Assembly: GCF_023554255.2 (NCBI RefSeq)
Contig: NZ_JAMJWD020000003.1
Coordinates: 310,001 to 374,000, forward strand
DNA length: 64,000 nucleotides
Source: Phyllobacterium sp. 21LDTY02-6
Lineage (GTDB): Bacteria; Pseudomonadota; Alphaproteobacteria; Rhizobiales; Rhizobiaceae
Reading direction: 5' to 3'
Numbering within the stretch: the first letter of the stretch is position 1; each line of letters opens with the position of its first letter. The notes below the pieces were generated by a model that had not been told where the DNA came from, made no database searches, and saw nothing but the letters and a program-made list of their open reading frames with translations. Below are positions 1-27,434 of the stretch, in pieces. The position numbers and the translations under genes were made by a program.

Positions 1-1081
1 TGGTCAGCGTCGTGTTCTGCACGTCGCCATTGTCACTGGACGGGTCGGTCGTCTCCACCGTATAGCCGGCGGCCTGCAACTCCGCACGGACCTGTTCGGG
101 CGTAAGCTCGCGGTTCTCGGCAATCTGGTCGATCGACTGGCCCTCGGCCAGGGCGTCCTGGATTGCCTGGGTCGATTGACCGCCCGGGTCCTGGCTCGAA
201 TCCAGGGTAATCGGCTGGCCGCCCGGAACCGTCACCGTCGTGATCGGCACTATCCCGGCTCCGGTTGCATCGGTGCCGTTGACGACCGTTTCGACCGAGG
301 TGCCGTCGGGCATCAGGATGTCCTCGGTGACGGTCCCGTCGCCAAGGTCGTCCTCATAGATCGTGGACGTCTGCCCGGTCTCGGCGTCATAGCTCGTGCT
401 CATCGCCCGGCCACTGCCGTCGCGCATCGGCGTTTCGTCGACCGGTTCTCCGTCCGCGCCCGTTAATTCGGTGTGATAGGCATCATGCTGGTAATCGTAA
501 TACTCGCTGACCGTTTCGCCGTTTGCCAGTGTGACGGCGGTGGTTTGGACGTCCCCGTTGTCACTGGTCGGCGCGTTTTCGTCGACGGTCATGCCGCCTG
601 ATTCCAGCGTATCGAGTATCTGCTGACGCGTCAGGCCGCGATCTTCGGCAATCTGGTCGATGCTCTGTCCGGACGTCATCTGGTCGACGATGGCGGAAGC
701 TTCCGTTTCGTCTGCTTCTTCCGCCGATACCGGCACGTTGTTCGTCGGAATATATGGCGGCGGCGTGTCGTTTTCCTGCGGCACGGTGATGCCATTGAGA
801 AGGAAGTCCGCCGGATTGATGCCTGACGTCAAGGCGAGAGGTGCCGTACTTGTCTGCTGGCCGAAGGGCAGCGTCTGCGAGGCATTCCTGCTGGCTGGAG
901 TTGTCTGCTGGCGGGCAGGCGCGGGAGTGAAGACAGACTGTGGAGCGGCGGGTGCCGGAGAAGGCGACGGCGACTTGGTCACCGCCTTTGCCGCTGTCTT
1001 GGCGGCCGTCACGGCGGCAGACCATGCAACGGCTTCAACAGCAGCGCGGGCGGGATTGGCAATCTTGATCGGACGTTGCAT
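1..1081 (-). CDS. Unknown protein with long-period internal repeat (partial)
   Basis: The reading frame is open on the minus strand from an ATG at 1081 to the window edge, so about 360 N-terminal residues are visible and the C terminus is missing. The first ~35 residues are Ala/Lys rich, followed by a Pro/Gln/Ser-rich stretch to about residue 120. A ~46-residue module starting QSIDQIAEDRGLT (near residue 138) recurs as QSIDQIAENRELT exactly 176 codons (528 bp) later and runs off the window. Between the copies is an acidic Gly/Thr/Asp-rich segment with beta-strand-like phrases. An in-frame TGA lies 12 codons upstream of the ATG; the ribosome binding site is weak. I do not recognise the family. 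A repetitive surface or effector-type protein is possible but is only inference. Confidence 0.7.
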   Translation of the reverse strand, partial: MQRPIKIANPARAAVEAVAWSAAVTAAKTAAKAVTKSPSPSPAPAAPQSVFTPAPARQQTTPASRNASQTLPFGQQTSTAPLALTSGINPADFLLNGITVPQENDTPPPYIPTNNVPVSAEEADETEASAIVDQMTSGQSIDQIAEDRGLTRQQILDTLESGGMTVDENAPTSDNGDVQTTAVTLANGETVSEYYDYQHDAYHTELTGADGEPVDETPMRDGSGRAMSTSYDAETGQTSTIYEDDLGDGTVTEDILMPDGTSVETVVNGTDATGAGIVPITTVTVPGGQPITLDSSQDPGGQSTQAIQDALAEGQSIDQIAENRELTPEQVRAELQAAGYTVETTDPSSDNGDVQNTTLT

Positions 1082-1268
1082 GCAGGATCCGGACTTTTTG
1101 CTCAGAGCGTGTTTTCACTCAGCTTCTGCAGCGCTCACCGAAAACGACAGCGAAACTGTGGCTTGGCCTCCAATCATTCGCGCAGCGGCCTGAACCAGCC
1201 GCCGACTACCTTGAGAATACGGGAATATCGTACCTATATTGCGTCTTTGTGACAGATATCCCCACGCT

Positions 1269-2357
1269 TTATTTCACGCTGGGAAGTTTGATGAGTCGAT
1301 CGCGCAGTTGCAGAAAATCGGAACACACGCTTTCCAGATCGTCGAGGTCGAAACCATCCGCGTGGACGGAGCCTTCTTCAACGAGAAGCTCCCGCAACCT
1401 GCCATGATAGGTCGCTGCCCGACCATGAACGGTCAGTCCCCTGCGCTGTTCGAATGCCTCGTTCCAGGCAATGGCCTCGTCTGCAGTGATACCGCCCGGC
1501 AGATCGAGCACGAGTTCGCCGCCTTCAAGCCGAACGGGATAGCCCCCGGGAAGCCCGCTGGGCCCCGGCACGTGTCCGCGCCATTCCTGCCCGCCAATCA
1601 GCGCGAGAATGAGCGTTACACCTGACGCGCCTGATATCTCGATTGCAGGCTCCGGTGTCAGCTGACAGTCCTTGAAGGCGGCGAACGGATCTTCGATCTC
1701 TTCGTCCTCGATGAAGACGCGCGGCGCCGGGTGTCCGGCCCGCTCCTCGTGGCGCAAGCGCCACGGCGCGAGGCATTGATAATGAGCAATTACCCGCAGC
1801 TGGCCGGCGGGAAGGTGCGCCCGCTCACCGTCGAACACGTTCGACAGGATCGCGACATTGCCGGTGCCGCACAGGACCTTGTATCCCATGGCGGTGATCA
1901 TGCCGTTGACGACATCCGGAAAAGAGCAATTTATAAGCCTGGTATCGGGCGATTTGTCGCTGATGGCCTTCGCCATCCGTGAGCTGATGAGCGCCTGAAA
2001 CACCGCCGTGGCGCTCAGGCCACCATCGGCGACGAGATCGCTCCAGCGCGAACCGCGGTCGGAAATCACCGTCGAAGTCTGGATCGATGCCGCCTGCACC
2101 ACCAGTCGCGGCCGACACAGCGCCAGAAGCGTTTCGCTCGCACCGGGCTCAAGCAGGTCGATCTGATGCGTTTCGAAACGCGCCGGGGTTCCGAACATCG
2201 CGGCGCGTGCATTTCCGGCGGTGCGCAACCAGTCGAGGCGCATCCGGTTGCGTCCGGCGATCATCACGGTGACCGGCGTCTTTGCCGTCGCCGCGATATC
2301 CAGCGCGATTCGCCCGGCAAACATGCCGGTGCCCGTGATAAGTACATCATGGCCCAT
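1269..2357 (-). CDS. Saccharopine dehydrogenase-like NAD(P)-binding protein
   Basis: A 362-residue protein with an N-terminal Rossmann-like nucleotide-binding segment (ITGTGMFAG near residues 7-15) typical of the saccharopine dehydrogenase-like NADP-binding superfamily. The substrate is unknown. It is the last gene of the minus-strand operon that begins with the enoyl-CoA hydratase, 17 bp after the CoA ligase. I chose the ATG at 2357 because AGGGGAG lies just upstream; an ATG at 2378 would overlap the ligase stop as ATGA and is the alternative. A protein of similar length and fold occurs at 51772-52803, so the window holds two members of this loosely defined family. Family call is fair; reaction unknown. 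Confidence 0.65.
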   Translation of the reverse strand: MGHDVLITGTGMFAGRIALDIAATAKTPVTVMIAGRNRMRLDWLRTAGNARAAMFGTPARFETHQIDLLEPGASETLLALCRPRLVVQAASIQTSTVISDRGSRWSDLVADGGLSATAVFQALISSRMAKAISDKSPDTRLINCSFPDVVNGMITAMGYKVLCGTGNVAILSNVFDGERAHLPAGQLRVIAHYQCLAPWRLRHEERAGHPAPRVFIEDEEIEDPFAAFKDCQLTPEPAIEISGASGVTLILALIGGQEWRGHVPGPSGLPGGYPVRLEGGELVLDLPGGITADEAIAWNEAFEQRRGLTVHGRAATYHGRLRELLVEEGSVHADGFDLDDLESVCSDFLQLRDRLIKLPSVK

Positions 2358-2374
2358 CGATGGCTCTCCCCTGT

Positions 2375-3895
2375 TCATGGTGCCTTTTTCAATTGGGCGG
2401 CATCCCATCGTCCCTCCTGCCCCGTCGGCAGGAGATGTTTCTGGATGCGCTGGCTTGGTGTGCGCTGAAACTCGTTCACGACCTTGAAATAGCGCGGCCG
2501 CTGATGCGGAGCGAGACGCTCCGCCATCCAGCGCCATAGCTGATCGAGGTCGATCGTGGACTGGTCATGCGTCTGTATGAAAAGCAGTATGTCGTGCTCC
2601 CCCACTTCGCCCGGAACGCCGACCATGGCCGAGTCTACGACCTCCGGATGAAGATTGGCCACGGTCTCCACTTCGAATGCCGAGACGTTTTCGCCCTTGC
2701 AGCGCACCGAGTCGGTCATGCGCCCAAGGAAGAACAACATGCCGTCATCGTCCCACGAGCCGAGATCACCCGTATGAAACCCGTCCGGCTGCAGGGCCTT
2801 GGCAGTTGCCTCGGGGTTTCCGTAGTAGCCTTGCGTGATCGCACCCGGCAGACTGGTGCGCACGACGATCTCGCCGGGGCCTTCTCCGGGCTTCAGGGTA
2901 CGGCCGTTCTCGTCCTTCAACTCGATCTCGAACCATGGCATGGCGCGCCCGACGGAGCCGACCACGCCATCATTGTTCCACGTCGTCAGGCTCGAACATT
3001 CGGTCATGCCGTAGCATTCGCGGATTTGCACAGCGAACCTTTGCTCGAAGGCGCGCCATGCTATCGGGGGGCAGCCACCGCCCCAGGCGATGCGCACCTT
3101 GTGGGCGCGCTCCCACGGACTCTCCGCCTGCTTGAGCAGAATTTGAATGATGCCGCCAAGGTGATGGATATGCGTGCAGCCCGCTTCCGCCACCTGTTGC
3201 CAGAAGCGCGACGCGCTGAAGCGGTCGGCAATCGTCAGATGCACGTTCCGCAACAGCGGCACCATCAGCACCTGCGCGCCGCCAATATGATAGAATGGTT
3301 CCCACACGAACAGGTTGTCGCCGGTCTTCATGTCGCCGCAGAGCACCACGCCCTGGGCCGCAAGCTCAAGCATCATATGGCTGACCATCACGCCCTTCGC
3401 CGGGCCGGTCGTACCGGAGGTGAACATGATCGATGCCAGGTCGCCGGGCTCGGGAAATTCGGCCGAAACGGGAAGTGCTGCAGCCGGCAGCTCGTCATTC
3501 TGCATCGGATCGACCGGAATGCCTTCAGCCTCGGCGCATTCGGAAAGGCGTGCCGTGACCTCGTGGTCACATATGATGAGCGATGGCCCCACGGTGCGGA
3601 TGACATGGGCGAGCGATGCCCCGACCAGGGCCGGATTGACCGGCACCCAGACCAGGCCGGCGCGCAGCAGGCCGTGAATGATGGCGAGAGACGGCAGGCT
3701 GTTTGCCATCATCACGACGACCCTGTCGCCCTTGCGCAGGCCGCGATCATGATAGCGCTGGGCAAAGCCTTCCGCGGCGGTTGCGAGGGTCTGGAACGTT
3801 ACCGGGCCGGAGCTGGTATTGGCGAAAATTCGGTTGGGTGTCTCGCGAGCGAGGGCTTGTAGGCGGCGGGCCAATCCTTGGATCTGCATGTTCAA
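2375..3895 (-). CDS. AMP-forming acyl-CoA ligase (CaiC-like)
   Basis: Class I adenylate-forming enzyme of 506 residues, which would activate a carboxylic acid with ATP and load it on CoA. The P-loop-like motif FTSGTTGPAKG lies at 158-168, YGMTE at 295-299, HTGD at 374-377, the hinge GRMTDSVRCKGENVS at about 391-405, and a plausible catalytic Lys at 486 in the C-terminal lid. All family motifs are present, so it should be active. Length and sequence character resemble crotonobetaine/carnitine-CoA ligases, but the substrate cannot be assigned. It sits between the fused ABC permease and the saccharopine-dehydrogenase-like gene, in an operon that also holds an enoyl-CoA hydratase. This suggests CoA-ester breakdown of the compound imported by the adjacent transporter. 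Confidence 0.85.
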   Translation of the reverse strand: MNMQIQGLARRLQALARETPNRIFANTSSGPVTFQTLATAAEGFAQRYHDRGLRKGDRVVVMMANSLPSLAIIHGLLRAGLVWVPVNPALVGASLAHVIRTVGPSLIICDHEVTARLSECAEAEGIPVDPMQNDELPAAALPVSAEFPEPGDLASIMFTSGTTGPAKGVMVSHMMLELAAQGVVLCGDMKTGDNLFVWEPFYHIGGAQVLMVPLLRNVHLTIADRFSASRFWQQVAEAGCTHIHHLGGIIQILLKQAESPWERAHKVRIAWGGGCPPIAWRAFEQRFAVQIRECYGMTECSSLTTWNNDGVVGSVGRAMPWFEIELKDENGRTLKPGEGPGEIVVRTSLPGAITQGYYGNPEATAKALQPDGFHTGDLGSWDDDGMLFFLGRMTDSVRCKGENVSAFEVETVANLHPEVVDSAMVGVPGEVGEHDILLFIQTHDQSTIDLDQLWRWMAERLAPHQRPRYFKVVNEFQRTPSQRIQKHLLPTGQEGRWDAAQLKKAP

Positions 3896-3942
3896 CGAAA
3901 ACCTTGATATTTAGCGGATCGGCAGGGCGATCCTGACACATT

Positions 3943-5682
3943 TCACTTTTGAATCTTCTGGGCTGCGAGCAAGATGAGCATGACGAGGAGCATCACCACG
4001 ACCGATACTGCGGCCAGTGTCGGATTGAGCTGCAGGAACATGTCGTCCCACATCTGTTTTGGAAGCGTCGTCTTCAGGCCGCCCGAAATGAAGATTGCGA
4101 CCGTCAACTCGTCGAACGATGTGACGAAAGCAAACAGGGCTGCCGAAATGACGCCACCGCGCAGCAATGGCAGGGTGACACGGCGCAGGATCGTCAGGCG
4201 TCCCGCACCCAGCGTTTCGGCAGCCTGGTTCAGGCGCCAGTCATAGCTTTTCAGCACTGCTCCCACCGTTATGAAACAGTAGGGAATGGCAAGGAGCGTG
4301 TGGCCGATGACGAGGCCTGTATTGGTCGCGACCAGACCAAGCTGCGCCATCAGGTAGAACAGGCCCACGGCAATGACGATGCGCGGCACCACCATCGGAG
4401 CAAGCATCAGCGCAAAGATGGCGCCGTTCCACCGCGAACGGCTGCGCGCCAGGGCAAGGGCTGCCAGCCCACCCAGGACGGTGGCGAAGAGTGCCGTCGC
4501 GAAGGCGACGCCGAACGAGCGCAATGTTGCGGAAAGCCAGACCGGGGAGGTCAGATATTGCTCGAACCAGCGAAGCGAGTAGCCGGGGGGAGGAAATTGC
4601 AGCGAACTGGCCGAGGTGAAGGCGATGGGAAAGACGACGAAGATCGGCGCGATCAGAAATGTCAGCATCAGCACCGGATAGAGCCTGAAGCCGCGCTCCG
4701 TCGCTCCCGGACGGGTGTCGAACCGGTCGAACGGGCGGGAGAGGATCGCCATGGTCCTCAGTATTTTCTGGCCGGCGACGCGCAATGGGCCATTGCCTGG
4801 TGTCGTGCTGTCGGATCCGCCTCCTGAAATCGTCGACAGGCCGAAGAACCGGTTGTAGATCCAGATCGCGACCAGCGCCGCGACCACCATGAGGCTTGCG
4901 AGCACCGCTGCGAACGCCCAGTTCACGAGTTCCTGGACCTGCGTGATGATGGTCTGGGCAAGCATGGTCTGGCCACGGCCGCCGAGGAACGCCGGAACGA
5001 TGAAGAAACCAAGCGAGGTGATGAAAGTCAGCAGGCCGGCGGCGGCAACTCCGGGAACCGAAAGCGGGAAGTAGACCAGCCAGAACCGTTCGGAACGACC
5101 TGCTCCCATGGTCCCCGCCGCCAGCGTGAGGCGCTTGTCGATACCGTTCATCACCGGCAGCATGGTCAAGACCGCAAGCGGCATCATCGCATGTACCATG
5201 CCGATGATCACGCCAAGCTCATTATACATCATCCGCAGCGGCCGATCGAGGAGGCCAATATCCATGAAAAGCGTGTTGAGGACGCCGCGATTGCCAAGCA
5301 GGATCATCCAGGCGAAGGTCTTGACGAGATAGGACGTCCAGAAGGGCAGCAGCACCAGCAAGGCCATGATCGTCTGGCGCGAGCTGTGCATCCTTGAGAG
5401 CCACAGCGCCAGTGGATAGCCGAGCAACACCGAAAAGACCGCCGTGAGAATGGCAATTCGGAACGTGATGCCGAGTATGCTCCAATAGACCGGCGTGGTC
5501 AGGAGCCGTTGGTAATGCTCCGTCGTGAGGCCGCCGGTTGCGCCGTCCTGAATGCCAAGAACGAACAGCCTTGCCATCGGAAACAGGAAGAACACCGCCA
5601 GAAGCGCGATGGCAGGAACGGCGAGCCAGATCGGCCCCAGCCGCACGGCCGCAGGACGCGGATTCGCGTGGGAAATGCTCAT
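3943..5682 (-). CDS. Fused two-domain ABC permease (PotB-PotC type)
   Basis: Inner-membrane permease of 579 residues that joins in one chain the two subunits usually encoded separately in spermidine/putrescine/Fe(III)-type importers. Each half has about six hydrophobic segments and its own EAA loop: AAGTMGAG near residues 188-195 and AAETLGAG near 487-494. A hydrophilic linker with GGGSDS lies around residue 300. The ATG at 5682 overlaps the upstream ATPase stop by four bases (ATGA), indicating translational coupling. It works with the ATPase at 5679-6755 and the binding protein at 6878-7936. Substrate is unknown; the CoA ligase and hydratase in the operon suggest an organic acid or betaine-like compound (inference). 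Confidence 0.88.
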   Translation of the reverse strand: MSISHANPRPAAVRLGPIWLAVPAIALLAVFFLFPMARLFVLGIQDGATGGLTTEHYQRLLTTPVYWSILGITFRIAILTAVFSVLLGYPLALWLSRMHSSRQTIMALLVLLPFWTSYLVKTFAWMILLGNRGVLNTLFMDIGLLDRPLRMMYNELGVIIGMVHAMMPLAVLTMLPVMNGIDKRLTLAAGTMGAGRSERFWLVYFPLSVPGVAAAGLLTFITSLGFFIVPAFLGGRGQTMLAQTIITQVQELVNWAFAAVLASLMVVAALVAIWIYNRFFGLSTISGGGSDSTTPGNGPLRVAGQKILRTMAILSRPFDRFDTRPGATERGFRLYPVLMLTFLIAPIFVVFPIAFTSASSLQFPPPGYSLRWFEQYLTSPVWLSATLRSFGVAFATALFATVLGGLAALALARSRSRWNGAIFALMLAPMVVPRIVIAVGLFYLMAQLGLVATNTGLVIGHTLLAIPYCFITVGAVLKSYDWRLNQAAETLGAGRLTILRRVTLPLLRGGVISAALFAFVTSFDELTVAIFISGGLKTTLPKQMWDDMFLQLNPTLAAVSVVVMLLVMLILLAAQKIQK

Positions 5683-6755
5683 GCGACGACCCTCGCGGCC
5701 GCCTTCGGCCAATGCGTTACGATCTCCTGCCCGATAGAAGGTATTTCGCCAGCCGCATCATGGCGAAGCGTCAGGATACTGTCGTCGGGCAGGGCGACGA
5801 GCAACCGTGTCTCTACGCCGACATAGACCAGATCCGTCAAACGGCCGCGAACGCTGTCGAACTCGGCGCTCGTCGTCTCGCCGATACGCATGTGTTCCGG
5901 CCGCACCACAAGGGCAACCTCCCCCGCCTGGTTGCGCGACATGTCGCGTCCGCAAAACGTGCCGCCTGCCGTCCGCACCCTGGCGAACTCGCCGTCGCTT
6001 CCGTCACGCTTTCCCTTCAGCACGTTGGAATGGCCGATGAACGTCGCCGCGAAAAGGGTTTCCGGATTCGCATAAATCTGGTGCGGGCTGCCCAGCTGTT
6101 CGACCCGCGCATGGTTCATCACGCAGATCCTGTCCGACATGACCAGCGCTTCTTCCTGATCGTGCGTCACATAGATGACTGTCGTGGCATATTCCTTGTG
6201 CAGGCGCCGGATCTCGAGCTGCATATGCTCCCGCAACGCCTTGTCGAGCGCGCCGAGCGGCTCATCCATGAGGATCACATTCGGATTGAAGACGAAGCAT
6301 CTTGCGAGCGCGACGCGCTGCTGCTGACCGCCGGACAATTCCTTGGGAAACCGGTGCGAGAACTTTTCGAGCTGCACCTTGCGCAAGGTTTCCTCGATCC
6401 GGCTGCGCACCTCGGCTGCCGAAAGCTTGCGCATCTGCAAGGGAAACGCCACGTTTTCGGCAACCGTCATGTGAGGAAACAGCGCATAGTGCTGGAAGAC
6501 CATGCCCATGCCGCGCTCGTTGACGGGCCGGTAGGTCCAGTCCGCGCCATCGACCAGCAGACGGCCGGCACTTGGCTCGGCAAGTCCTGCCACCATCTGC
6601 AGAAGGGTTGTCTTGCCTGAGCCCGAAGGGCCCAGCAATGTCAGAAACTCCCCGTTCCGAACTGTCAGGCTCGTCGGTTCGAGCGCAGTGAAATTACCAT
6701 ACTGCTTTGACAGTCCTTCGAGGACGAGTTTGGCTTGCTGCTGGTCCGCTGTCAT
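5679..6755 (-). CDS. ABC importer ATP-binding protein (PotA-like)
   Basis: A 358-residue ATPase of the polyamine/Fe(III) (PotA/FbpC) class. Walker A GPSGSGKTT, signature LSGGQQQR, Walker B VILMDEP and the switch histidine in VTHDQEE are all present, followed by a C-terminal TOBE-like domain of about 110 residues. I prefer the ATG at 6755 because AGGA lies six bases upstream; the ATG at 6761 would leave no spacer. Its stop overlaps the start of the fused permease. The 122-bp gap to the preceding binding-protein gene carries a short perfect hairpin (6789-6804). It energises uptake through the fused permease. Confidence 0.9.
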   Translation of the reverse strand: MTADQQQAKLVLEGLSKQYGNFTALEPTSLTVRNGEFLTLLGPSGSGKTTLLQMVAGLAEPSAGRLLVDGADWTYRPVNERGMGMVFQHYALFPHMTVAENVAFPLQMRKLSAAEVRSRIEETLRKVQLEKFSHRFPKELSGGQQQRVALARCFVFNPNVILMDEPLGALDKALREHMQLEIRRLHKEYATTVIYVTHDQEEALVMSDRICVMNHARVEQLGSPHQIYANPETLFAATFIGHSNVLKGKRDGSDGEFARVRTAGGTFCGRDMSRNQAGEVALVVRPEHMRIGETTSAEFDSVRGRLTDLVYVGVETRLLVALPDDSILTLRHDAAGEIPSIGQEIVTHWPKAAARVVA

Positions 6756-20893: not shown

Positions 20894-20953
20894 CCGCACT
20901 CCATTGTTTGGCATCAAACTACATGATCTCAATTGGTCGGGGAACAAAAAAGT

Positions 20954-20972
20954 ATGACTGTGTGGCAGTCAT
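20954..20972. promoter_or_regulatory. Inverted repeat between regulator and isochorismatase gene
   Basis: ATGACTG / CAGTCAT, 7-bp perfect arms around TGTGG, in the divergent region between the FadR-type regulator and the isochorismatase-like gene. The half-site matches the kdgD-proximal palindrome, suggesting autoregulation and possible control of the plus-strand gene. Confidence 0.55.
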
Positions 20973-21073
20973 CATACTTCTCCGACCGTATGGGATTATG
21001 CCTGAATGGCTCTGGCGGTTTGTGTCGCTGCCTGTATCATCACTCGACTCGCATCGATCAGAAAGGAATTTCC

Positions 21074-21613
21074 ATGAACCGCCGCGCCGTCGTCATCGTC
21101 GATTTCCAGAACGATTATCTCCCTTCCGGCAAATGGGCGCTGGCGGGGATTGAAGCCGCCGTGGATAACGCCGCCAGGGTCGTTGCCGCGGCGCGCGCCG
21201 CAGGAACGCCCGTCGTCCACGTTCGCCACGAGAGCGGGCCGGACGCTCCGTTTTTCGTCGCCGGAACCAGTGGTGCGGAAATCATTCCGGCCGTGGCGCC
21301 AAGAGACGGCGAGCCGGTGGTGACGAAAAACTATCCCAACGCCTTTCGGGATACGAACCTCAAGGCTCTCCTGGATGCGGAAAACATCAAGGAAGTGGCG
21401 ATCGTCGGCGCCATGACGCATATGTGCATCGATGCAACGGCTCGCGCGGCTGCTGATTTCGGCTACAGCGTGCTTGTTGCCCACGACGCGACCGCCAGCC
21501 GCGACGTGGAGTTTGGCGGAAAAACGATCCCGGCCGCCGACACCCATGCAGCCTTTCTAGCGGCCCTTGGCTTTGCCTATGGCAAAGTCGTCGCGTCAGA
21601 CGAGCTGATCTAG
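21074..21613 (+). CDS. Isochorismatase/nicotinamidase-family hydrolase
   Basis: A 179-residue cysteine hydrolase. The catalytic triad is visible as Asp10 (VVIVDFQNDY), Lys85 (VVTKNYPNAF) and Cys118 (VGAMTHMCIDATARAAAD). The cis-peptide motif before the Cys (GAMTHMC) is typical. GAAAGGAAT precedes the ATG at 21074. The substrate could be an N-carbamoyl or amide compound; nicotinamidases usually carry metal ligands (DxH) after the first Asp that I do not see here, so a generic isochorismatase-like amidase is the safer call. It is divergent from the FadR-type regulator. Confidence 0.85.
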   Translation: MNRRAVVIVDFQNDYLPSGKWALAGIEAAVDNAARVVAAARAAGTPVVHVRHESGPDAPFFVAGTSGAEIIPAVAPRDGEPVVTKNYPNAFRDTNLKALLDAENIKEVAIVGAMTHMCIDATARAAADFGYSVLVAHDATASRDVEFGGKTIPAADTHAAFLAALGFAYGKVVASDELI

Positions 21614-21806: not shown

Positions 21807-24800
21807 TTACCATATGGCCTTGAAGCCGGCATTGCCGGTGAGCGAATAGCTGCCGCCGATGTCGTCAAGGCTGGTATTGACCGTGCCGCGGCCAAAGATC
21901 GAATATCGGGCGTCGTCCCAGTCAAACGAACCGCCGAGGCCGATGCCGCCCCATAGATCGTCCCTCCCCGAGACAAAGCTGACATTCTCGATCTTGACGT
22001 TCGTGCCCTCAAGGAACTCGTAATAGAGGTTTGCGACGCCGGAGAACTGTACCCTGTCCGCGAGGCCGCGGTCGTTCTGCCATGAGCGCTCATGATCCAC
22101 GGAAATGCCAAGGCGGCCCTGCAGGCTGCGCGCCATTTCAAGCCTGATGTTCGAGCCGAATCCATCCTTGAAATCGTCGAAATCGACGCTCGAATAGGTG
22201 AGCTGGGCCTGCGGCGTCACCGACCAGCGCCCGGCGATTGCGAAGCGCTTGCCGCTTTCCAGCGATAGCGCGAAACCGATCGCGTCATTGCCGTCGATGA
22301 GCCCGCCGCCGCGAGCCGATGTCGTCAGGTCGGTATTGTACCAGGTCACCTGCGCCAGGCTGTCGACATAGAAGCCGCCATTGCCCCGGAACGTCAGCGT
22401 GCCGCCAAAGCCATAGCCCTCGGTCGAGATTTCGGCATCGGCATAGGCGCCCGAACGGGTACTCGCATTGCCGCGGACATAGTGCACGAACACGCCGCCG
22501 GTCATGCTCCCATGTTCGTTGTCGATCATCATGCCATCGATGCCGGCCTGCAACTTGAGCATATCCTGCTCGAAACCGGTTGCGGTGATCGACGACCGGG
22601 CCGCGATATGTTCCCGCCCGCCTTCGATGCCGCCCCAGAGATGGCCGCTGCCATGGGCGCCTGCATCTTCGGTGCGGTCGCTCCCTTCCGCCTGGAAGCG
22701 GCCGCCCAGACGCTGCTGCAACGTGCCGACGCCGTTCAGCCCGAGCAGCGCTTGCGGATAGGCCTCATAGGCCGGCGATCCGACGTGATATTCCGGCGCG
22801 GAGACCGGTTCGGGACTCATCTCCGGACTGGAAGCCGGTTGCGGCTCTTCCGCAGCCGGCACGGGGCTCGGACCGGCGTCGGAACCGGCGTTCACATCCG
22901 CCTCCGATACGGGCGCTTCCGGCGCGTCGGGCGCAGGGATTTCAGGCGCATGCGTTTCCGGCGCAAGCACTTCGGGTACAGGCACTTCGGGCACAGGCGT
23001 TTCAGATACCAGAATTTCAGGTGCAGGCGCGTCGGGCGCGGCGACTTCAGGCGCACGCGTTTCCGGCGCAAGCACTTCAGGTGCTGGCACTTCAGGCGCA
23101 AGGACCTGATGCACACGCACTTCAGGTGCGATTGTGGCGCTCTCCGCCGCATCGGCTTTCAGTGCCGCCGAGCGCAGATACCAATCCTTCGGGTCGGTGC
23201 CGGAGGCATTGTTCTTGTGCAGCCGGTATGTGTAGGCGCCGGCCACCACATAGTCGCCCTCGAGGGCGAATATGCCCTCGGACGCGCCATCGATGGCGAT
23301 GATCTCGATACCCTCGGTTGTCCTCGCGCCCATTCCGCCGGCATTGCTTACGCGAACCGTCGAAGAGCCGGACGTATTGCCACGGACAATCAGCCTGTCG
23401 GTCGCCGAATCGTCGCCGGACAATGCGGTTTCCAGCAGCACGACGCCGTCCCGGCTGTCGAGATCGCCGGCAATGGTCAGCGTTCCAATCGAATTGCCCG
23501 GCGCGATCATTGCTCCACGCTCGAGCCGTATGCTGCCGACCTGCCCGGAACCGCCAAGGACGGCACCTTCGGCTATCTTGAGGCGCCCGCCGAGAACAGC
23601 CGGTTTTGCCGGATCGCCGACAAGCAGGCTGCCGCCGGCGATCAATGTATCTCCCTTGAATCCGGAACTATCGCCATCGAGCAGCAGAGCTCCCTGGCCA
23701 TGCTTGACGAAACTGCCTGCGCCGGCGATCCGCCCTGAATAGACGGAAGCCTGCTTCTGATCCATCTGCAGTGTTGCAGCGGCACCGATCTGGACATTGC
23801 CGTGGAACCTGCCCGCATCGGCCAGAAGCTTTCCCTGCTCTATCGACCAATCCAACGCCGAGCTACCCTCGAGCGCCAGATCGGCGACGCCCTTTTTGAC
23901 CATCTTTCCGGCTTGTTTCTTGACGATCTTGCCGGTTTGCGCACCATCGATGGCAGTAATGTCACCGCCGAAGATTGCGTTGCCGGACTGCTCGAATATC
24001 ACCGTCCCCGCATTGGCGATATCTCCCGCGATCGAGCCCGCCGCGCCCTCGAGCGTGCCACCCCGGACGATCGTCGCGGCATATTTGTTGCCGGTGTTCC
24101 CGAGATGCAGGACGCCGCCGCCGCTTTTGATCAGCGTCCCCGCTCCGGTGACCGCGCCGGTCAGGTCCAGCCTGTCGGTGCGGCTAACGTCGAACAGCCC
24201 GGTTGTTTCTATCGCGATATTTCTGCCCATCGAGAAATTTCCGCGTGCCTCCAGTCCGCCGTCCTTCATATCGAGCTGCGCGGCAGCTGCGCCGAGATTG
24301 CTGTCCGACGATATTCGCAGGGCCCCGCGCTCGATCGTCGTGCTGCCGGAGTAGCTGTTGTTACCGGACAGTTCCAGCGTGCCGGGCCCGCGCTTGGTCA
24401 GTCCTCCGGGGCCGGAAATATCGTTCTTCCATCTATCCCTTGCGCCGAAATCCGCCACGTCCAGTTTCGGATCGATCGATTGGTCCACGATCATCGTCTC
24501 GCGGAAATAGGCCGGCCCATGATGCGCGGCAGCCAGATTGATCAGGCCCCAGCGGGAATCCGGGTGTTTCTTGGTGACCAGCCATCCGGCCGACGACGTT
24601 TCGGGAAATGCGGTACTTGCCAGGATTTCCAATCTCTGCTGCTCGTTCAGATAGGGAAAGCGGAGACGGAGCAGATTTGCCGCCATCTTTGGCAGCTGGC
24701 CGGGCAACAAGGCCGCCGGCGTCGCAGTCGAAGCGCCATAGGAGCCCATCGGGAACCCGCTTTTGGCGTTCTCGTTGAAAAGCGGCGTAGATTCACGTTC

Positions 24801-25583
24801 AAGACACTCGCGCAGCGCCTGCGCGCACAGGCCAATCAGATCGCGTCGCAGCGCTTTGCTTTGCCGCGCGAAAGCGCCGGCCATCCAGTCATCGGAGAGC
24901 AGTTGCGCCGCCGTGCTGTAGGTGCCGATGCGCGAGGCGATGGTATCGGTCGGGAAATGCGCTCCGACGACCACCCTGCTTTCCGCATATTGATCGCCGC
25001 GGGAATGGATTTCCGCGCCGCGCTCGGGGAACAGGATGGCCAGGGCGAGCGCCTGATCGTAACCTCTCCAGGAATGGCCGCTTGGAAAGGACGAGCCCTT
25101 TATGTCCTCATATTCTTTCTTATATCGGCCTTGACGGTCGAGCACCTCTTTTGGACGTCCCCGCAGGAATTCATCCTTCAGGAGAGACGCCGAAGATTTG
25201 TTGGCAGCGTCGATCACCTCTTTGGCGAATATATAGCTCTGATGTTGGTCGAGCTTCGCCTTGGTGGAAAGCGAACCGAGAGCTGTCGGGAGGAAGCTCT
25301 GGTAGAGATAGGGCTCTTTTTCATCTTTATCCGACTCGGCGAGAATCTTCCGTGCACCCGGTATGGCCTGGTATTGCAGGCTTTTCTTGCGATCGAGTTC
25401 GGCAAAGCTGGTCCCGGATAGGGGATAGTCCTTCAGGATTTTCTTCTTGAGATACTTGAACCAGCCCTCCCGTTCCTTTTCGATGTATTCGAGGGCAACC
25501 TGCAGGTCGTTTGCATGCAAAGACGGAGCAGATTGAAAAAATACAGAGCCTGCCAGTATGATGGCACTCAATCGCCGAAACAT
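21807..25583 (-). CDS. Autotransporter with PAP2 acid-phosphatase passenger
   Basis: A 1258-residue type Va-like secreted or surface protein. Signal peptide at residues 1-24 (MFRRLSAIILAGSVFFQ, cut after HA). The N-terminal ~340 residues carry the full class A acid phosphatase/PAP2 signature: KX6RP (Lys136 to Arg-Pro 143-144), PSGH (167-170) and SRX5HX3D (Ser202-Arg203, His209, Asp213). Three passenger-associated repeats follow (for example LTKRGPGTLELSGNNSYSG near 394-412), then a beta-helix-like region. Next comes a linker of degenerate APEV/APET repeats at roughly 815-895, a Pro/Ser-rich stretch, and a ~270-residue C-terminal beta-barrel ending in Trp. I chose the ATG at 25583 because AGGA lies upstream and gives a standard signal peptide; an ATG at 25604 adds seven residues. 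It is flanked by non-coding repeats and has no operon partner. Confidence 0.9.
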   Translation of the reverse strand: MFRRLSAIILAGSVFFQSAPSLHANDLQVALEYIEKEREGWFKYLKKKILKDYPLSGTSFAELDRKKSLQYQAIPGARKILAESDKDEKEPYLYQSFLPTALGSLSTKAKLDQHQSYIFAKEVIDAANKSSASLLKDEFLRGRPKEVLDRQGRYKKEYEDIKGSSFPSGHSWRGYDQALALAILFPERGAEIHSRGDQYAESRVVVGAHFPTDTIASRIGTYSTAAQLLSDDWMAGAFARQSKALRRDLIGLCAQALRECLERESTPLFNENAKSGFPMGSYGASTATPAALLPGQLPKMAANLLRLRFPYLNEQQRLEILASTAFPETSSAGWLVTKKHPDSRWGLINLAAAHHGPAYFRETMIVDQSIDPKLDVADFGARDRWKNDISGPGGLTKRGPGTLELSGNNSYSGSTTIERGALRISSDSNLGAAAAQLDMKDGGLEARGNFSMGRNIAIETTGLFDVSRTDRLDLTGAVTGAGTLIKSGGGVLHLGNTGNKYAATIVRGGTLEGAAGSIAGDIANAGTVIFEQSGNAIFGGDITAIDGAQTGKIVKKQAGKMVKKGVADLALEGSSALDWSIEQGKLLADAGRFHGNVQIGAAATLQMDQKQASVYSGRIAGAGSFVKHGQGALLLDGDSSGFKGDTLIAGGSLLVGDPAKPAVLGGRLKIAEGAVLGGSGQVGSIRLERGAMIAPGNSIGTLTIAGDLDSRDGVVLLETALSGDDSATDRLIVRGNTSGSSTVRVSNAGGMGARTTEGIEIIAIDGASEGIFALEGDYVVAGAYTYRLHKNNASGTDPKDWYLRSAALKADAAESATIAPEVRVHQVLAPEVPAPEVLAPETRAPEVAAPDAPAPEILVSETPVPEVPVPEVLAPETHAPEIPAPDAPEAPVSEADVNAGSDAGPSPVPAAEEPQPASSPEMSPEPVSAPEYHVGSPAYEAYPQALLGLNGVGTLQQRLGGRFQAEGSDRTEDAGAHGSGHLWGGIEGGREHIAARSSITATGFEQDMLKLQAGIDGMMIDNEHGSMTGGVFVHYVRGNASTRSGAYADAEISTEGYGFGGTLTFRGNGGFYVDSLAQVTWYNTDLTTSARGGGLIDGNDAIGFALSLESGKRFAIAGRWSVTPQAQLTYSSVDFDDFKDGFGSNIRLEMARSLQGRLGISVDHERSWQNDRGLADRVQFSGVANLYYEFLEGTNVKIENVSFVSGRDDLWGGIGLGGSFDWDDARYSIFGRGTVNTSLDDIGGSYSLTGNAGFKAIW

Positions 25584-25709
25584 AATCAATATCCTGAAAT
25601 TCAAATAAACCGATCAAATATGACTGCGTTAACGCGTCAGTTTATCAATTGGATGACAAGGGAATGATATTCCGCCGGCGAACAAGCCCAGCATGAGGGG
25701 ATTGATTGC

Positions 25710-26052
25710 ATAAGCAAAATCTGCACCACGCCCGCGCAATCGCGTCTGGTCATTGAAAAAGGGGGGGGGAGACGGGCGGTCTTCAGCGCGTCAGTATTAT
25801 ATCAGGGTCGAGGTCCGAAGACCGCCCGCGACGTCTTTGCCTGCCATTGTCACGTTTGTCAGACGCAACAACCCGGAAAACGAAGCGCTACCTCCGTTTC
25901 CATCTGCAGTTTGCCGGCCAATCGGGTTTGTCACTTCCGATCGTCCGGCAACGCCATCCTTTCCCAGCTTGTCGAAACAGCTCCGGAAGCTGCTCCCCCA
26001 CTGGAAAGGATTTGTGCAGAATACCCCGGCTTCAAACAGGGGGGATAAGTTT
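25710..26052. repeat. ~343-bp intergenic repeat, copy 1
   Basis: Closely matches 45981-46320 over its whole length, with scattered substitutions and a few small indels. It starts ATAAGCAAAA and ends GGGATAAGTTT. A 12-bp inverted repeat, CGGGCGGTCTTC (25773-25784) / GAAGACCGCCCG (25817-25828), could form a strong stem-loop and is identical in the other copy. No shared protein-coding frame is evident and there is no transposase. It may be a non-autonomous mobile element or a structured RNA. Confidence 0.8.
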
Positions 26053-26284
26053 TTTTGCGTGCCGGAAGGAAGAATGAGCGAAATCATTGGCTTACAGGGC
26101 AAAATATTCTTTTAGGCCGAAAATCTATCCCACCGCATGGGCCAGTTTGCCCCCGTTCATGGCCCGGAAAACAAGCGATGGCAATAATGTACCGCGTGCC
26201 ATGAGGGAGGTGGGTTGATGGCGGTAAGGTTGGGAGCTTGGGTTTGAAACCTCGCAGAACTAGAACCCTGCAAAACTCTACTCT

Positions 26285-26386
26285 CCCTCATCCTGAGCTT
26301 GTCGAAGGGCGCAGCAACGCTTGTGCAATCTCTTTTTAGGAAGCTGCATCGAAATAGTGCGTGCTTCGACAAGCTCAGCATGAGGG
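26285..26386. repeat. ~102-bp palindromic repeat (Bru-RS/REP-like), copy 1
   Basis: 23-bp terminal arms, CCCTCATCCTGAGCTTGTCG.. and ..CGACAAGCTCAGCATGAGGG, are inverted with one mismatch and enclose about 56 bp. The size and arm type resemble the palindromic Bru-RS repeats described in Brucella and the CTTCGACAAGCTCAG elements widespread in Proteobacteria. A degenerate copy lies at 45829-45947. Confidence 0.75.
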
Positions 26387-26540
26387 AGGTTGGTGGGTGG
26401 CAGGGCGGTAGTTCTGCAAGCTTTCAGCTCTGGCTCCCTACTTTTCTGCAAACAAACCCCTACCCCACGATGAGCCTGCCAAACCACGATGCCCTGCATT
26501 GTGGGCGTCCCTTTTTAAAGGCTTGCGGAGACGATGATGT

Positions 26541-27434
26541 TCAGCCTTTCGCCGCGATGATCCTGGTGATGGGCGAGATCGGCTCGCGCCCGAGCCTGGC
26601 GCATGTATCGAGGGCAACCCGGCACAGCGCCGGCAGGTCGACACCGGTTGCAACGCCCATCCCTTCCAGCATGTAGACCAGTTCCTCCGTCGCGACATTT
26701 CCGGTCGCGCCCTTGGCATAGGGGCAGCCGCCGAGACCGCCGACCGAAGCGTCGAAGACCCGCACGCCCGCTTCGAGGCAAGCGTAGATATTGGCCAGCG
26801 CCTGTCCATAAGTATTGTGTTCGTGCAGCGCCAGCCGGTCCATGGGCACCTCTCCCGCCACGGCTCGCGCCATGGCAGCCGCCGCCTTCGGCGTGCCGAC
26901 GCCGATCGTATCGCCGAGGGAAATCTCGTAGCAGCCCATGCGATGGAGCCGCTCGGCCACCTTCACCACGGCCGATACCGCCACTTCTCCCTCATAGGGA
27001 CATCCGAGGACGCAGGATACATAGCCGCGGACGCGAATGCCGGCCTGGCGCGCGGCATCCATCACCGGTTCGAATCTTTCGAAGCTCTCGGCAATGGAAC
27101 AATTGATATTCTTCTGCGAGAAGCTTTCCGATGCGGAAGCGAAGATGGCGATCTCCCCGGCCCCGGCCGCATGCGCCGCTTCGAAGCCCTTCATGTTCGG
27201 CACCAGCACGGGAAAGTCGAGGCCGTCGCGCTTTGGCAGCGCGGCAAGCACCTCGGCGGAACCGGCCATCTGCGGCACCCATTTCGGCGAGACGAAACTG
27301 CCCGCCTCGATGCTGCGCAGGCCTGCGGCAACCAGACCCTCGATCATGAGGATGCGGTCCTCGACGCTCAGCGGCCGGGCCTCGTTCTGCAGCCCATCCC
27401 TCGGGCCGACTTCGACCAGGCGTATATTATCCAT
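26541..27434 (-). CDS. mvaB: Hydroxymethylglutaryl-CoA lyase
   Basis: A 297-residue TIM-barrel enzyme that cleaves HMG-CoA to acetoacetate and acetyl-CoA. The N-terminal VEVGPRDGLQNE, the histidines in ALHEHNTYGQALAN and the catalytic-cysteine loop GGLGGCPYAKGATGNVATEE are all intact. The ATG at 27434 follows GAGGTGAAG; a GTG at 27446 is the alternative. Its start overlaps the end of the MocR-type regulator gene, so the two are co-transcribed. Together with the divergent class II HMG-CoA reductase it forms the mevalonate catabolic pathway known from Pseudomonas mevalonii (mvaAB). A leucine-degradation role is less likely because no methylcrotonyl-CoA carboxylase genes are present. Confidence 0.92.
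   Translation of the reverse strand: MDNIRLVEVGPRDGLQNEARPLSVEDRILMIEGLVAAGLRSIEAGSFVSPKWVPQMAGSAEVLAALPKRDGLDFPVLVPNMKGFEAAHAAGAGEIAIFASASESFSQKNINCSIAESFERFEPVMDAARQAGIRVRGYVSCVLGCPYEGEVAVSAVVKVAERLHRMGCYEISLGDTIGVGTPKAAAAMARAVAGEVPMDRLALHEHNTYGQALANIYACLEAGVRVFDASVGGLGGCPYAKGATGNVATEELVYMLEGMGVATGVDLPALCRVALDTCARLGREPISPITRIIAAKG

Follow-up and report, generated by a model that had tools for sequence, protein, structure and literature searches.

We analysed a 64,000-nucleotide stretch of the genome of Phyllobacterium sp. 21LDTY02-6 (hereafter the window; contig NZ_JAMJWD020000003.1, positions 310,001 to 374,000), which codes on its minus strand for a large autotransporter with an acid phosphatase at the N-terminal end of its passenger (Table 1). 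This protein is probably a surface phosphatase induced by phosphate starvation, and a chimaera composed of a class A phosphatase head, an adaptor related to the C-terminal tails of subtilases and a barrel of Phyllobacterium lineage. The proposal draws on the domains and motifs of the protein, the homology of its adaptor, the differing trees of head and barrel, and the enrichment of Pho-box-like sites among relatives. The architecture of an autotransporter acid phosphatase is already known from MapA of Moraxella catarrhalis; as judged from sequence, the differing histories of head and barrel, the subtilase-tail adaptor and the recurring Pho-box-like site go beyond it.

A class A acid phosphatase as autotransporter passenger

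The gene is an uninterrupted frame of 1258 codons between an ATG at 25583 and a stop at 21807. Pfam analyses of the whole protein revealed PAP2 (2.5e-9), PATR (5.3e-14), AC_1 (2.1e-24) and Autotransporter (8.8e-30) domains. The barrel profiles are nearly complete, with positions 1-253 of 255 matched for PF03797 and 1-430 of 432 for the NCBIfam entry TIGR01414 (autotrans_barl, 9.8e-84), and the structures of BrkA and Vag8 align to part of the barrel profile. Sequence similarity to the autotransporter structures 4mee, 5ke1 and 3ml3 extends over residues 682-810. The N-terminal signal peptide, MFRRLSAIILAGSVFFQSAPSLHA, was called by eye from the protein sequence rather than by a program. The Pro/Glu-rich spacer corresponds to an array with a 15-nt period (22930-23126, 66% matches), and the last residue of the protein is a Trp. 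By its C-terminal beta-domain, its aromatic last residue and its PATR passenger with the autochaperone AC_1, the protein is a probable type Va autotransporter. An earlier note on this DNA, made from the sequence alone, had described a complete PAP2 acid phosphatase carried by an autotransporter, which the Pfam and NCBIfam matches and the motif positions confirm; the passenger repeats, APEV-type spacer and Trp-ending beta-barrel that it listed are present as the PATR stretches, the 15-nt array, the PF03797 match and the final residue.

The motifs KX6RP, PSGH and SRX5HX3D mark class A acid phosphatases. All three occur in that order in the head (residues numbered from the ATG), with the correct spacing that the earlier note had reported, and the His residue of the third motif, presumably the nucleophile, is at position 209, as it had also stated. 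A head profile built from the window protein and 15 relatives was compared with solved structures and matched class A acid phosphatases at 5e-20 to 2e-26. Its positions 22-228 align with residues 34-228 of 1iw8 (E 1.4e-24), and 1d2t is found at ~1e-24, with nearly the whole fold covered. These profile and motif matches place the head, by sequence, among the class A nonspecific acid phosphatases of the PAP2 superfamily. It resembles PhoN, PhoC and the E. blattae enzyme in its motifs and in the near-complete coverage of the fold, but whereas the solved class A enzymes are chains of ~217-274 residues, the phosphatase is here the head of a 1258-residue autotransporter. The NCBIfam equivalog model for PhoC matches at 6.7e-11 with 42 bits, far under its cut-off of 430 bits. 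We also weighed whether the head might be a lipid phosphatase like PgpB and discarded this, as PgpB was matched at only ~4e-7. An action on host phospholipids, suggested earlier, finds no support, since the head profile fits soluble class A phosphatases far better than PgpB.

In order to collect relatives, we used the 376-residue head and adaptor as a query. A scan of named genome contigs yielded at least 40 loci, a lower bound because only two short patterns were used. Sixteen of these loci match nearly the whole query at 37-44% identity and are hereafter called clade A. They belong to Providencia (5), Proteus (4), Herbaspirillum (2), and Serratia, Acinetobacter, Rodentibacter, Pseudomonas protegens and Phyllobacterium (1 each), with Enterobacterales accounting for 10 of the 16. 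In the plasmid collection, records from Serratia marcescens and Proteus mirabilis align over 98% of the query. Among 20 genomes of the genus, whole-head matches were found only in the window's genome and in that of Phyllobacterium sp. KW56 (G008), whose relative is a frame of 1086 codons; another genome, G012, harbours a protein of a second head clade. A 398-genome sample of the phylum (window's genome included) gave 26 matches at E <= 1e-20, with full coverage of head and adaptor only in the window's own protein, and 199 genomes from the family to which the Acinetobacter hit belongs (the hit's own included) gave 18 matches at 1e-10, three of which cover the full head and adaptor. No relative of the protein was found in the viral contigs searched. 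Pfam scans of eight further clade A proteins identified both PAP2 and Autotransporter domains in seven (L035, L048, L051, L058, L060, L061 and L173), and PAP2 only in the eighth (L172, from genome G519). Related proteins are spread over several proteobacterial families.

MapA is described, in excerpts of the published accounts, as an outer-membrane acid phosphatase and autotransporter (PMC5424252, PMC9289746, PMC3419190) with a signal sequence, a class A head, the active-site residue His233 and a barrel at residues 672-940 (PMC5424252). Parts of a 2022 review present it as the one autotransporter of its enzyme class to have been characterised, placed in no group (PMC9289746), and in a 2012 survey, likewise available in part, it clusters with non-SPATE protease autotransporters (PMC3419190). 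Like MapA as so described, the window protein joins a class A head and a C-terminal autotransporter barrel in one chain. Moraxella is absent from the at least 40 loci of the genome-contig scan, and one likely MapA orthologue was found among the 199 genomes of the Acinetobacter family and 22 genomes of one genus. This is the clade A gene of G519, in which the His residue of PSGH lies 707 residues from the end of the protein. As this distance equals 940 minus 233, provided that MapA ends at residue 940 and that His233 is the PSGH His, we take this gene to be a probable MapA orthologue, though its N-terminal part is longer. Its product is 33% identical to the window protein over window residues 33-517. 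Unlike the G519 protein, in which Pfam detects neither PF03797 nor AC_1, the window protein has AC_1, the Pro/Glu-rich spacer and a barrel of Phyllobacterium lineage.

A subtilase-like adaptor, and separate histories of head and barrel

The adaptor (residues ~300-366) is located between the phosphatase, which extends to residue ~245, and the first PATR repeat, and the intervening residues 245-300 are less conserved. When an adaptor profile of 15 proteins was compared with all solved structures, the first match was the serine protease 8e7f (1.8e-7), which we take to come from Serratia, and the next was fusolisin (8axg, 0.0035). The matched part of 8e7f starts at its GTSMAAP motif. For comparison, we used four S8 proteases (L033, L034, L071 and L074) that had originally been fetched for their similarity to the adaptor. 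Their S8 domains are recognised at 1e-28 to 8e-49, and the Pfam S8 matches reach the end of the profile, 51-60 residues past GTSM, thus running through most of the tail. A profile-profile comparison of the adaptor with the four S8 tails gave a probability of 98.7 and an E-value of 4e-16 over 67 columns; in a rerun, the real pair scored 97.7 and 60 column-shuffled controls 2.0 or less. Like the subtilase autotransporters 8e7f and fusolisin, the window protein thus combines a homologous adaptor with a PATR start, and it differs from them in its catalytic core, a phosphatase in place of an S8 protease. As tails of this type form part of S8 domains generally, a phosphatase core most likely took the place of a protease core, and we infer that the exchange probably ran in that direction. 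Such a replacement would explain why MapA clusters with non-SPATE protease autotransporters in the part of the 2012 survey available (PMC3419190), and the adaptor homology offers a testable reason for that clustering. Our literature search found no work joining autotransporter, subtilase and acid phosphatase, and two papers that mention autotransporters, the Pho regulon and phosphate starvation together.

The same similarity could have arisen if residues 300-366 were an independent small linker, acquired by both subtilases and phosphatase autotransporters, and no remnant of a protease. It would agree with this origin that a similar PATR start follows the adaptor in the aligned phosphatase proteins, in 8e7f and in fusolisin, and that the Pfam S8 model alone hardly detects the adaptor. 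However, the stretch homologous to the adaptor comes directly after the catalytic GTSM in all four S8 proteases used for comparison, and 51-60 of its residues lie inside a Pfam S8 match that reaches the profile end, which makes an independently acquired linker rather unlikely.

We built trees of the heads (20 rows) and of the barrels (27 rows). In the head tree, the window protein falls among heads from Serratia, Proteus and other bacteria, in a clade of 14 rows (support 100/100). In the barrel tree, it is part of a nine-row clade of barrels from the genus Phyllobacterium (support 100/99); PAP2 was absent by Pfam from all seven scanned of the other eight proteins of this clade, L187 being outside the scan. 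Monophyly of the barrels from ten proteins with clade A heads was rejected by the approximately unbiased test (p-AU 9.87e-107), and so was the pairing of the window and KW56 barrels (p-AU 1.7e-92). The KW56 barrel pairs with that of L177, the second-clade protein from G012 of the same genus (98/95), and the pairing of the KW56 and L177 heads was in turn rejected (p-AU 5.97e-62). Because the KW56 barrel groups with that of L177 and not with that of the window, two distinct barrels carry clade A heads in one genus. By these trees, the head and the barrel of the window protein have different histories, and the protein appears to be a chimaera.

Of the same type of tail, we noted a further instance in the window's own genome: locus L032 (G000:C1:339738-340025) encodes a subtilase-like GTSAAAP stretch, then a similar tail (R-FPYL, WG, GP-F, W-NDIS).

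A Pho-box-like site and the proposed role

The PhoB site consensus consists of two CTGTCAT repeats separated by a 4-nt spacer, according to excerpts of a published description (PMC3131613). We searched for the pattern CTGTCAT-N4-CTGTCAT with up to three mismatches, over an upstream range of 300 nt in relatives. The sole match in the window is on the gene's strand, upstream of its ATG (Table 1). Sites are present before 5 of the 20 clade A genes (window's included), where 0.24 were expected from shuffles; the carriers are the window gene and those of Serratia liquefaciens, KW56, Rodentibacter and G594, the latter coding for a two-headed protein. The Serratia liquefaciens site, CTGTCATTATCCTGTCAC, has a single mismatch; for Rodentibacter, whose start codon is uncertain, the upstream range was taken from the frame start. 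No site was found at this threshold in 115 control frames or on 20 antisense strands, and none of 400 permuted patterns reached five genes (mean 0.38, largest 3). In the second head clade, one gene of eight has a site.

The window's genome contains 250 sites with up to three mismatches, versus 94 for the reversed pattern. The window's site is weak by itself for this reason, and takes its weight from its position and its recurrence in relatives. We inspected 10 of the 31 sites of that genome with two mismatches or fewer. The two best precede phnG (by 88 nt) and a pstS-like gene (by 75 nt), and another is found 87 nt before phoX. Further sites lie 83 nt before a weak match to choice-of-anchor I and before a glycerate kinase gene, and the remaining ones are inside frames or precede small or unidentified frames. 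Phosphate scavenging, a role proposed in the earlier note, gains support from the recurrence of this site, and PhoB bound upstream probably turns the gene on in phosphate starvation.

In the mechanism that we propose, the signal peptide would send the protein to the periplasm, and the barrel and autochaperone would move the passenger across the outer membrane, so that the phosphatase would sit on the cell surface at the tip of a beta-helix stalk. There, His209 is predicted to attack phosphate monoesters such as nucleotides and sugar phosphates, freeing phosphate for uptake, and PhoB acting at the upstream site would induce the gene when phosphate is short. The proposed role is thus phosphate scavenging at the surface. 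An adaptor able to carry either type of head, protease or phosphatase, would also be useful for the surface display of enzymes.

These elements can be combined in a wider evolutionary scenario. In a subtilase autotransporter, a class A core would have taken the place of the catalytic core, with the last 50-65 residues of the protease kept as a docking adaptor on the beta-helix. The adaptor region would then have served as an exchange point. There, heads would have passed from one barrel to another, in Phyllobacterium once at the least and probably twice (window and KW56), and would have reached Gram-positive bacteria joined to different anchors, such as S-layer domains or a cell-wall-sorting-like tail. 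The surface enzyme would belong to the phosphate-starvation response. Taken as a whole, we regard the scenario as evenly poised between being right and wrong. Several observations count against our main reading of the protein as a chimaeric surface phosphatase induced by phosphate starvation. In the adaptor search, four unrelated LpxD chains (~0.06) outrank the subtilase-like Mirolase and 1r6v (0.13 and 0.64), and the Pfam S8 model detects the adaptor in no more than a single row of the 15 (E 0.054). The head tree leaves one versus two gains of Phyllobacterium heads undecided (p-AU 0.43), five barrels of the barrel tree are on long branches, and a program warning casts doubt on joining the G594 barrel with the Phyllobacterium clade, which weakens the deep groupings; the placement of the window among the Phyllobacterium barrels, with 52% identity to L180, is not weakened by this. 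As for regulation, chance would give 3.65 matches to the Pho-box pattern across the window, and the window's site belongs to the class with 250 matches in the genome. Fifteen of the 20 clade A genes, including four from Proteus and five from Providencia, lack a site at three mismatches, and with two mismatches or fewer only 2 of 20 genes retain one, a number equalled by 3 of 400 permuted patterns.

Two other functions were weighed against phosphate supply. The phosphatase could serve interactions with a plant or another host, by removing phosphate from extracellular ATP or signals of that kind. Phyllobacterium lives in association with plants and soil, and PhoN2 of Shigella is presumably a class A enzyme. 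The latter is an apyrase according to excerpts of its description (PMC3937361), and a review available in part notes that autotransporters are often active at host surfaces; both would suit a host role. Such a role is nevertheless improbable, given that the Pho-box-like site is spaced much like those before the pstS-like, phnG and phoX genes, and that the relatives occur in varied bacteria, with mostly Enterobacterales among the named clade A loci. It is more improbable still, to the point of being hard to credit, that the head is catalytically dead or vestigial and that the protein, by way of its beta-helix, functions in adhesion. In favour of this reading, autotransporters whose barrels share this lineage abound in the genus, and the second-clade Phyllobacterium protein L177 has PSCH for PSGH; against it, the window protein preserves every motif residue, and these residues are invariant in 13 aligned clade A heads.

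Genomic setting and further relatives

The gene appears to stand alone. On its 3' side, a plus-strand frame (20933-21613) points toward its end, and upstream a gap of 957 bases lies between the gene's start and the nearest long frame on the minus strand, which ends at 26541. Most of this gap is made up of dispersed repeats. The segment 25692-26199, or most of it, occurs in at least 14 other places in the genome with 82-91% identity, as a repeat of ~410-500 bp, and 26200-26404 is a shorter element, likewise repeated. The description of a solitary gene between repeat-rich intergenic regions fits the convergent frame and the upstream gap and, for the repeats, fits the upstream side. Inverted arms of 69 nt, 78% complementary, are present within 26245-26426. 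In the other genomes of the genus, only short parts of the upstream repeat were found among the matches listed. An empty site was sought in the genus and no clean one was found; among the matches listed, those to G013 and G010 are confined to the regulator frame that flanks the locus on one side.

Table 1. Positions in the window of the phosphatase autotransporter gene, its parts and its upstream elements
Feature	Position	Strand	Basis or remark
Phosphatase autotransporter gene	21807..25583	-	Open frame, Pfam and NCBIfam domains; 1258 aa
Signal peptide, residues 1-24, ending SLHA/ND	25512..25583	-	Judged by eye from sequence
Class A acid phosphatase / PAP2 head, residues ~25-245	24849..25511	-	Pfam PAP2; profile match to 1iw8, 1d2t and PhoN structures
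Motif KX6RP, residues 136-144	25152..25178	-	K, R and P invariant in 13 aligned heads
Motif PSGH, residues 167-170	25074..25085	-	Sequence and aligned heads
Motif SRX5HX3D, residues 202-213	24945..24980	-	S, R, H and D invariant in 16 aligned heads
Adaptor, homologous to C-terminal tail of subtilase (S8) domains, residues ~300-366	24486..24686	-	Profile comparisons
PATR / beta-helix part of passenger, residues ~385-690	23514..24431	-	Pfam PATR, 3 stretches
Autochaperone AC_1, residues 696-788	23220..23498	-	Pfam PF18883, 2.1e-24
Pro/Glu-rich (APEV-type) spacer, residues ~820-885	22930..23126	-	Tandem repeat, period 15
Autotransporter beta-barrel, residues 982-1258, terminal Trp	21810..22640	-	Pfam PF03797, profile 1-253/255
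Pho-box-like site ATATCAT-TCCC-TTGTCAT, 3/14 mismatches	25653..25670	-	Starts 87 nt before ATG
Dispersed repeats upstream of gene	25692..26404		Main body to ~26199; second repeated element ~26200-26404

The second head clade includes proteins from Azospirillum, Pantoea, Methylobacterium, Paracoccus and G583, in addition to that of G012, and is separated from the clade of the window head with a support of 100/100. Its PAP2 autotransporters share with the window protein the PAP2 head, adaptor, PATR and barrel, as found by Pfam for L177 of G012 and L044 of Paracoccus. The Azospirillum and Pantoea proteins are annotated as autotransporters, and the Methylobacterium protein (L039) is placed in the clade by its head. 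The PSCH sequence of L177 is at residue 262 of its frame.

Other arrangements were identified among the relatives. The two-headed protein L173 (G594:C22, plus-strand frame 411-5861, 1817 codons) consists of two tandem phosphatase heads, two AC_1 domains, a collagen-like GAT repeat and a single barrel. The three motifs are intact in both heads, which pair with each other as closest relatives in the head tree. Proteins from Paenibacillus, Niallia, Deinococcus and Nicoliella (the L040, L042, L041, L045 and L064 group, four of which were scanned) harbour PAP2 and PATR without a barrel by Pfam. The adaptor region is matched by proteins of these four genera and by a Microbacterium protein. The Paenibacillus protein has three S-layer domains, and by eye the end of the Niallia protein resembles a sorting signal.

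On the Serratia marcescens plasmid pWVU-009, the phosphatase and barrel of L043 (3109-6058) are annotated as two separate genes. This locus adjoins transposases of the IS91 and IS3 families and looks disrupted; the L035 copy on pET_W2 is a single open frame. Lastly, the region G001:C8:513500-545200 contains three autotransporter frames within ~30 kb, with similar barrels and differing passengers.

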